Origin: an uncultured archaeon
Lineage (GTDB): Archaea > Thermoproteota > Bathyarchaeia > Bathyarchaeales > DTEX01
NCBI GenBank assembly: GCA_938091805.1
Contig: CALKGV010000014.1
Location: forward strand, 1-42,786
Length of the DNA stretch: 42,786 nucleotides
Direction of reading: 5' to 3'
The notes beneath the pieces were generated by a model. That model was given only the letters and a program-made list of their open reading frames with translations, did no database searches and was not told the origin of the DNA. Positions 31,535-34,175 of the stretch are shown here, piece after piece. Position 1 is the first letter of the stretch. The number at the start of each line of letters is the position of its first letter. The translations under genes and the position numbers were made by a program.

Positions 31535-33793
31535 TCACTGGATTTCTACATCACTAAAGAATTTTCGTAGATGAAGGAGGCTTCTTCTGCCAGTAACTTC
31601 AAACTTGCCAGTGAGCCTTATATCCTCAGATGAGCTGCCAACCATGACTTCATATAAGCCGGGTTCAACCACTAGTCTCATATCCCGATCATAGAAGGCA
31701 ACCTGATCCATATGTAATGTGAATGTTATTTTCCTTCTTTCTCCCGGCTCTAATGTAATTCTCCTGAACCCTTTTAATTCCTTAACCGGTCTAGAGACCG
31801 ATGCCACAGTGGCGCGTATATATAATTGTGCAACTTCATCGCCCCTTAGTTCGCCGACATTTTTGACGTAGAAGCTAACAGTAACTTTGCCTGCTGGCCC
31901 AACCTTACTCGGCTCTATTTCAAGTGAGGAATAATCAAACTTTGTGTAGCTTAACCCATGCCCGAATGGGAATAAAGGTTTGGCGCTCATAAAGACATAG
32001 TCTCTGAAGGAAGAGCTCCTTCTACTGTAGTAAATCGGTATCTGCCCAGCATCCTGCGGTATGGTGATGGGCAGCTTACCGCCAGGGTTATAATCACCGA
32101 ATAGGGCGTCTGCTATGGCATTCCCGCCTTCCTCCCCTGGGAACCATGCCTCAACTATCGCGGATGCTTTTCCGGCTATTCGCCCTATTGACAGAGGTCT
32201 ACCGTTCACGAGCACTATTACTAATGGTTTACCTGTCTTATAAAGTTCCTCAAGGAGATCTTCTTGAACTCCGGGAAGCGAAAGGCTTGCACGATCCCTT
32301 CCCTCACCGGTTACAGCTGGCAGATGGAACATTCCCGATCTTTCACCCATTACCGCCACGATAACGTCGGATTTTGATGCGGCTTCAAGAGCCTCCCTAA
32401 ATCCATCCTTTGATAAGTCATATATGTCGCATCCTCTCGCGAAATATATGAGCGTTTGAGGTGAAACCTTGCCCCTGACGGCTTCTAATATGCCGATTAC
32501 TCTGACAGCATCCTGCTCGCAGCCCAGATGCAGCGTATAGCTGTAGTCGCCTAGTAAACCCCTCGTTGTGTCAGCGTTTGGTCCTATAATAGCTATTGCT
32601 CCCAAATTCTTCTTCAATGGGAGAGTTCCATCGTTCTTTAGGAGGATTATAGATTCTCTCGCAGCTCTTAGAGCTAGCATCCTATCTTCCTGCGTGTCTA
32701 AGGCTCTTGAAGCCTTCTCAACATCAACATATGGGTTATCAAAGAGCCCTAGAAGGAATTTGACCCTTAAAACTCTGGAGACGGCTTCATCTATAGCCGC
32801 CTCTGAAATGATACCTTCTTTAACGGCGTTAAGTAAGGGTTCACCATAGCACTTAAGCCTCGGCAGCTCTATATCTATGCCGGCTTCTAGGGCTTGTACA
32901 GCGGCTTCCTTCTCATCTGCTGCAACATGATGGAAGGTCCTAAGCATCTCGATTGCTCCATAATCTGAGACGACATATCCCTTAAATCCCCACTTGAACC
33001 TGAGGATTTCGGTTAGCAGTTCTCTGGAGGCCGCGCATGGCACACCATCTATGTCATGGTAAGCGTTCATTATGGAGTATGCTCCAGCCTTCCTGATAGC
33101 GACCTCAAAGGGGAACAGAAATATTTCCCTAAACTCCCTCGGTGGAACATGCACAGGTGCGCAGTTTCTTCCACCCTCAGAAAAACCATGAGCAGCGAAA
33201 TGCTTCGGCGTAGCTACAATCCCCGATGACAAATTGTCCCCCTGAAGTCCCGTTATATATGCCACACCCATGCTGGCAACTAAATATTGATCTTCACCGT
33301 ATGTTTCCTCGGTTCTACCCCATCTAGGATCCCTGGCAACATCAAGAACCGGCGCAAGCCCCTGATGGGCCCCTAAAGCCCTCATCTGCCTCCTAATAAC
33401 CGCTGCAACGCTTTGAATCAGATCAGGATCCCATGTGCTCGCCAACCCTATGGCCTGTGGGAATGTTGTTGCACCATAACTCATTAATCCACTTAAGCAT
33501 TCCTCATGGACTATGGCTGGTATGCCGAGCCTTGTCTCCTCTATTAAGAACTTTTGAATGCTGTTTGCTGCGGCAGCTATGCCAGCTGGATCCCTAGGAG
33601 ACTCGCGGCTTCCGGCCAGTCGAGTGATCTGCCCAATGCCCTTACTAATAAGATTTAGAGCCTTCTCACGTGAGAGCCTTCCATTTTCTAAAAGCTCCGA
33701 AGCTGGGATTGAACCTAACTGAGCGATTTTTTCCTCAATACTCATTTGTTTAACCAAACTTTTAACTTTACTATTCACAGCATATTCCCTCAT
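31535..33793 (-). CDS. Family 3 glycoside hydrolase (beta-glucosidase/xylosidase type)
   Basis: This 752-aa enzyme has the GH3 order: TIM barrel (about 1-340), alpha/beta sandwich (about 360-600) and C-terminal fibronectin-like domain (about 645-725). KHFAAHG near residue 195 is the substrate-binding lysine-histidine motif. D277 in VVSDYGAI is the expected nucleophile. There is no signal peptide, so the enzyme is probably cytosolic and releases glucose or xylose from imported oligosaccharides. Sequence alone does not decide between glucoside and xyloside. With the GH2 gene it points to plant or algal polysaccharide use. Confidence 0.93.
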   Translation of the reverse strand: MREYAVNSKVKSLVKQMSIEEKIAQLGSIPASELLENGRLSREKALNLISKGIGQITRLAGSRESPRDPAGIAAAANSIQKFLIEETRLGIPAIVHEECLSGLMSYGATTFPQAIGLASTWDPDLIQSVAAVIRRQMRALGAHQGLAPVLDVARDPRWGRTEETYGEDQYLVASMGVAYITGLQGDNLSSGIVATPKHFAAHGFSEGGRNCAPVHVPPREFREIFLFPFEVAIRKAGAYSIMNAYHDIDGVPCAASRELLTEILRFKWGFKGYVVSDYGAIEMLRTFHHVAADEKEAAVQALEAGIDIELPRLKCYGEPLLNAVKEGIISEAAIDEAVSRVLRVKFLLGLFDNPYVDVEKASRALDTQEDRMLALRAARESIILLKNDGTLPLKKNLGAIAIIGPNADTTRGLLGDYSYTLHLGCEQDAVRVIGILEAVRGKVSPQTLIYFARGCDIYDLSKDGFREALEAASKSDVIVAVMGERSGMFHLPAVTGEGRDRASLSLPGVQEDLLEELYKTGKPLVIVLVNGRPLSIGRIAGKASAIVEAWFPGEEGGNAIADALFGDYNPGGKLPITIPQDAGQIPIYYSRRSSSFRDYVFMSAKPLFPFGHGLSYTKFDYSSLEIEPSKVGPAGKVTVSFYVKNVGELRGDEVAQLYIRATVASVSRPVKELKGFRRITLEPGERRKITFTLHMDQVAFYDRDMRLVVEPGLYEVMVGSSSEDIRLTGKFEVTGRRSLLHLRKFFSDVEIQ

Positions 33794-33924: not shown

Positions 33925-34039
33925 GGGCCGGTCGTCTAGCTTGGTTAGGACGTCTGCCTGACTGGAGAAATCCCGGGAGGCGCAGAAAACCTTTAAATAG
34001 GCATCTGTAAGGCCGCCGGTTCAAGTCCGGCCCGGCCCA
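33925..34039 (+). tRNA. tRNA-Val (GAC), apparently with two introns
   Basis: The acceptor stem pairs GGGCCGG (33925-33931) with CCGGCCC (34032-34038) and A is the discriminator; CCA is not encoded. The D arm is GTCT/GGAC. The anticodon stem TCTGC (33953-33957) pairs with GCAGA (33982-33986). The loop starts CTGAC, so the anticodon is GAC. About 17 bases within 33963-33979 are extra at the usual intron place. The T arm is GCCGG-TTCAAGT-CCGGC at 34015-34031. Between the anticodon stem and T arm there are 28 bases instead of about 5, implying a second, noncanonical intron of about 23 bases. Exact splice sites are uncertain. Confidence 0.85.
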
Positions 34040-34175
34040 CTAAAATCTTAAGGGAGGCTCGAAATAGGGCTGTTCCTGCTCAGTTTTGATTTGGGGATCA
34101 TGTAAAAAATAAACGTTGTTTTTATGGAAAAATATAAAGATAAAGAGAATCACATGAAAAGTGAGGTGAAGCATT

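Follow-up and report, generated by a model that had tools for sequence, protein, structure and literature searches.

The locus considered here raises the question of whether a tRNA-Val(GAC) gene that is longer than its product should be, by blocks of 17 and 23 bases, encodes a working tRNA, and how the surplus would be removed. It lies in the window, the whole stretch of 42,786 nucleotides that was analysed. The acceptor (33925-31/34032-38), D (33934-37/33948-51), anticodon (33953-57/33982-86) and T (34015-19/34027-31) stems are all paired, as the sequence-only reading had reported. The span 33925-34039 scores 44.8 bits against the Rfam tRNA model, both in a 201-base search (E 8.6e-9) and in a search of the whole genome (E 1.7e-8). 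A default Rfam scan of the whole window at the gathering threshold misses the gene, and ARAGORN run over the window calls no tRNA there. Presented with the precursor, ARAGORN returns no gene by default and a 'tRNA-Stop' when introns are allowed. Excision of both inserts (Table 1) leaves a 75-nt tRNA that ARAGORN identifies as Val(gac); as is expected of bulge-helix-bulge (BHB) introns, the molecule folds and is recognised once the inserts are gone, this program calling Val(gac) in the spliced form only. The observation is thus confirmed: this is a genuine tRNA-Val(GAC) gene with two inserts.

Table 1. Predicted organisation of the tRNA-Val(GAC) gene, in window coordinates
Feature	Coordinates	Strand	Basis
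tRNA-Val(GAC) gene, primary transcript body, 115 nt	33925..34039	+	Rfam RF00005 match, four paired stems
Exon 1, positions 1-36, 3' end = anticodon GAC (33960-33962)	33925..33962	+	Intronless orthologues
Intron 1, 17 nt, at 36/37	33963..33979	+	Orthologue comparison; own scorer
Exon 2, positions 37-44, GCGCAGAA, 8 nt	33980..33987	+	
Intron 2, 23 nt, at 44/45, variable region	33988..34010	+	Orthologue comparison, BHB
Exon 3, positions 45-73: remaining variable region, T arm, acceptor 3' strand, discriminator A34039	34011..34039	+	
BHB of intron 1, central helix 33957-33960 (CCTG, positions 31-34)/33974-33977 (CGGG)	33957..33977	+	
BHB of intron 1, inner helix 33964-66/33971-73, GAAA loop	33957..33977	+	
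BHB of intron 2, outer helix 33979-81/34012-14, central helix 33982-85 (GCAG, positions 39-42)/34005-08 (CTGT)	33979..34014	+	
BHB of intron 2, inner helix 33990-92/33999-34001	33979..34014	+	

The best explanation, and very probably the correct one, is that the tRNA-Val(GAC) gene is functional and carries a pair of short archaeal introns of the protein-spliced kind, located at 36/37 and 44/45. Before splicing, each intron would pair through its 3' end with the preceding exon and so form a BHB substrate. A two-subunit tRNA splicing endonuclease would cut within the bulges, and RtcB would join the three exons into an intron-free 75-nt tRNA. At the level of sequence, this scheme is supported by the cloverleaf, by precise intronless orthologues, by conserved central helices and by the presence of the two EndA subunit genes and an RtcB gene; what they leave to inference is expression, the points of cleavage, ligation and whatever order the introns leave in.

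Intronless 75-nt genes from sister genera (L045, L047, L048, L050, L051) served to place the introns. The predicted product, CUGACGCGCAGAAGGCC, differs from each of them by two substitutions, and the comparison fixes the position of both inserts free of any structural assumption. The earlier suspicion of two introns, one of them in the variable region, is borne out by these orthologues, by conservation among relatives, by the BHB helices and by the Val(gac) call, and the insert lengths that it gave, 17 bases in the anticodon loop and about 23 before the T arm, prove to be exactly 17 and 23. The register of intron 1 is unique, because the purine G37 of the orthologues must stay. For intron 2, a start at 33986 or 33987 yields an identical product, and 33988 is favoured by the BHB. 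Neither intron is found at the canonical position 37/38; intron 1 lies one base 5' of it, which refines the earlier account of the anticodon-loop insert, now best placed at 36/37. A home-made scorer, run without knowledge of the site on the T-arm candidates of the genome, chose the same two introns.

The splicing signals are conserved to different degrees. The 4-bp central helix of intron 1 is complete in 19/19 two-intron genomes, that of intron 2 in 13/19, with three of its four pairs present in the other six; in the target both are complete. Counting distinct introns, 15/15 sequences of intron 1 form the complete helix against 0.33 by shuffling, and 12/17 of intron 2 against 0.14 (maximum 3 in 2000 shuffles in each case). 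The signal is best read as conservation of pairing and not as two-sided covariation, because the exon side is invariant. The sequence-only reading had proposed that each junction be checked for a BHB fold, and the central helices stand at both. The strict form, hBHBh' (two 3-nt bulges with both helices), is only partly present: intron 1 has the inner helix and a weak outer one, and intron 2 has both helices with an uneven inner loop. Relaxed BHB forms are known (PMC4090602, cited from part of its text). Folded without constraint, the precursor prefers a structure other than a BHB. A fold constrained to the BHB of intron 1 (BHB1) plus four anticodon-stem pairs reaches -42.1 kcal/mol against -50.0 for the best fold, a cost of 7.9 kcal/mol in the target.

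The hairpins of intron 2 vary in sequence and keep their stems (mean 4.0 bp vs 2.86 shuffled), and good hairpins in several relatives would also suit a tRNA in which the anticodon-loop insert alone is spliced and the 23 bases are kept as an unusually long variable arm. However, the sister-genus Val tRNAs have a variable region of 5 bases, so that the intronless orthologues are not of type II (long variable arm). The 3' end of the insert, moreover, has a copy of the 5' anticodon-stem strand (CTGY), which is kept in 11/11 genomes of the genus and which a BHB needs and a variable arm does not; the retained arm is very improbable. A single canonical intron at 37/38, giving the anticodon GAG of a tRNA-Leu instead of GAC, has one program call in its favour: with intron 2 removed and introns allowed, ARAGORN reads tRNA-Leu(gag) with the intron at 37, because a tool restricted to canonical introns sets it there and intron 1 is one base off. 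Against this, the intronless orthologues read CTGACGC, a separate gene of the same genome (L027) is parsed as Leu(GAG), the central helix is unpaired in the canonical register (by eye), and Leu tRNAs carry a long variable arm; the Leu reading is scarcely credible. Annotation that admits only canonical introns can thus miss such genes or misread their anticodon, as Leu or Stop for Val. A decayed pseudogene, to which the two inserts and the CTA found here in place of the CCA of relatives might point, is hardly to be credited either, with exons near-invariant across the genus while the introns diverge, and with no second tRNA-Val(GAC), and specifically no intact intronless one, found elsewhere in the genome (96.3% complete, 112 contigs).

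The bases that follow the discriminator are an observation in their own right. A34039 is followed by CTA at 34040..34042 (+), and CCA is encoded at this place in 10/10 relatives of the same genus. The CCA of the target tRNA would therefore need enzymatic addition. Upstream of the gene lies an ORF of 752 aa on the minus strand (31535-33793), which we take to resemble a glycoside hydrolase family 3 enzyme.

The two-subunit endonuclease demanded by the scheme appears to be encoded. The genome carries two EndA homologues, L001 and L002. L001 best matches 2cv8 and 3p1z, presumably the S. tokodaii and A. pernix enzymes, in near full-length alignments, and keeps the His of an EHAPY segment at the aligned catalytic place. 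L002 is best aligned with 1a79, presumably from M. jannaschii, and has Ser at the place of this His (KDSANY); that the place is catalytic is our assumption. On the encoded subunits, the pair shows the catalytic-plus-degenerate pattern of a broad-specificity EndA, which lends support to the earlier expectation that such an enzyme would be required. An RtcB ligase gene is also present (E 2.5e-175). Two-subunit EndA enzymes are tolerant of non-canonical introns, according to parts of two reports (PMC4090602, PMC7714728).

Among 256 genomes of the class Bathyarchaeia, 19 carry the two introns at these same places, including 11/11 of the own genus. By family, two-intron genes are found in 1/1 genomes of f3, 3/3 of f11, 2/2 of f12 and 2/9 of f15. 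Since the arrangement is conserved in this way, with intron interiors that diverge and exons that hardly do, it is not the product of chance. An intronless gene is found in 43/256 genomes, including 6/10 other members of the own family, and the two lists do not overlap among the 256 genomes. The strict patterns behind these counts classify 62/256 genomes (19 with both introns, 43 with neither, no true single-intron gene), and the other 194 match no strict pattern. Four apparent single-intron matches were rejected: the one with intron 1 only belongs to a gene with both introns in G094, and the three with intron 2 only are intronless genes with TTCRA further downstream. In a named genome collection, the intron-1 pattern was matched by 11 records, ten of Candidatus Bathyarchaeota and one of an uncultured archaeon; the target genome belongs to the Bathyarchaeia.

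Single-intron forms do exist, rarely. A looser search found intron 1 alone in G209, 32 nt long and with the same CAGG pairing segment, and, among the matches listed in another search, G081 has one intron elsewhere, at 39/40 (position judged by eye). Given these two genomes, the joint presence or joint absence of the introns is a tendency and not a strict rule. The distribution fits an old intron pair followed by several losses; alternatively, the introns may have been gained in parallel.

A further proposal, possible though on balance doubtful, is that the two introns form one cooperative splicing unit. The 3' end of intron 2, a copy of the 5' anticodon-stem strand, would capture positions 39-42, free C31 for intron 1 and so set the first splice site at 36/37; on this cooperative reading, the proposed folding is the reason why the introns are for the most part retained or lost as a pair in Bathyarchaeia. 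The pairing of each intron uses anticodon-stem bases, and that the two BHBs replace the anticodon stem by folding jointly is something we infer only. When the BHB of intron 1 is forced on the target, that of intron 2 (BHB2) emerges unforced, at -48.0 kcal/mol, a cost of 2.0 relative to the best fold. Of 18 distinct precursors folded at 37 C, 13 form BHB1 at a lower cost with intron 2 than without it; in 4 the cost is unchanged, and in 1 it is higher. With BHB1 imposed, the full set of four BHB2 central pairs appears in 12/18 precursors, all 12 within the own genus and f12. These modelled energies are suggestive of coupling and not decisive, and the presence of intron 1 alone in G209 argues against a strict dependence on intron 2. 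If the introns are coupled, the locus would be a small system in which to test how introns at adjacent sites limit one another's gain and loss.

Multi-intron tRNA genes have been described before in other archaea, and the tRNA-Val gene is largely ordinary in this company; it extends a well-documented class of genes to Bathyarchaeia. The comparisons that follow draw on parts of the cited texts. Multi-intron genes of Thermoproteales likewise have several short BHB or relaxed-BHB introns per tRNA, in a lineage with two-subunit EndA (PMC4090602). For instance, the tRNA-Pro(UGG) of Pyrobaculum islandicum has introns at 25/26, at 56/57 and at the canonical site; it is a different tRNA with different positions, whereas the Bathyarchaeia gene is interrupted at 36/37 and in the variable region (PMC4090602). 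The tRNA-Thr(GGU) of Caldiarchaeum subterraneum likewise has two introns, at 24/25 and 45/46, the variable-region one within a base of that in tRNA-Val (PMC3293823). It differs in that its second intron is in the D arm and in that one- and two-intron forms occur in the population (PMC3293823). Outside Thermoproteales, widespread non-canonical multiple introns are likewise found in the Asgard groups Atabeyarchaeia and Freyarchaeia, where 92-95% of tRNA genes have introns and over half have several; these belong to another phylum, and the likeness to the tRNA-Val gene is one of general pattern (PMC11291895). Two or three introns in one tRNA can be packed so tightly that the next motif forms only after one of them has been removed (PMC8450103). 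A limited search of the literature for tRNA introns of Bathyarchaeota/Bathyarchaeia gave no description of this gene, and the accessible parts of PMC9499178, PMC7714728 and PMC12918454 are silent on Bathyarchaeia tRNA introns.

Interrupted tRNA genes are common in the genome itself. The same scorer, which is not validated on a known genome, parsed 25 tRNA genes well: 16 intronless, 5 with one intron and 4 with two. A relaxed rule resolved four more, of which three have a single intron and one has two. As a rough figure from an incomplete set, the genome has about 18 introns in 29 parsed tRNA genes, 13/29 being interrupted. The parse of L079 was poor and L030 and L103 had none; L023 and L024, being identical, were counted once; and L073, L104, L077, L087 and a second T-arm-like candidate in L099 were left out as spurious or unparsed. 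The earlier view that two introns would be notable in this lineage does not survive, given this count and a pair of introns that is fixed in the genus and found in other Bathyarchaeia families. According to the authors of tRNAscan-SE 2.0, Thermoproteales have 0.84 introns per gene, and the archaea that they studied have 0.21 overall (PMC8450103, part of the text).

Several other features of tRNA genes came to light in this survey. Other Val tRNA genes of the family are likewise interrupted: by eye, the TAC-form genes of G013, G015 and G011 have two introns, and the CAC form in the own genus has a long insert (TAC/CAC loci L161, L162, L163 and the group L028, L164). The identical tRNA-Val(TAC) genes L023 and L024 lie near contig ends with identical upstream bases and are perhaps an assembly duplication. 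The tRNA-Cys gene L008 and the tRNA-Ser(TGA) gene L022, also near contig ends, are followed by an identical stretch of 30 bases, which may be a repeat at which the assembly broke. Certain 3' trailers (e.g. L119, L063, L061, L008, L096) consist of CCA, 8 bases and GTTCRA, a hexamer resembling a T loop; no such trailer stands behind the target gene. The CCA-8-GTTCRA pattern occurs in 35/250 Bathyarchaeia genomes, nearly all listed places being visibly tRNA ends, and its reversed control gave zero matches in the same 250. Among the 87 tRNA ends examined, 10 have the GTTCRA trailer, where shuffling gives 1.15; L129, which is among these 10, came from a pattern that selects for GTTCRA.
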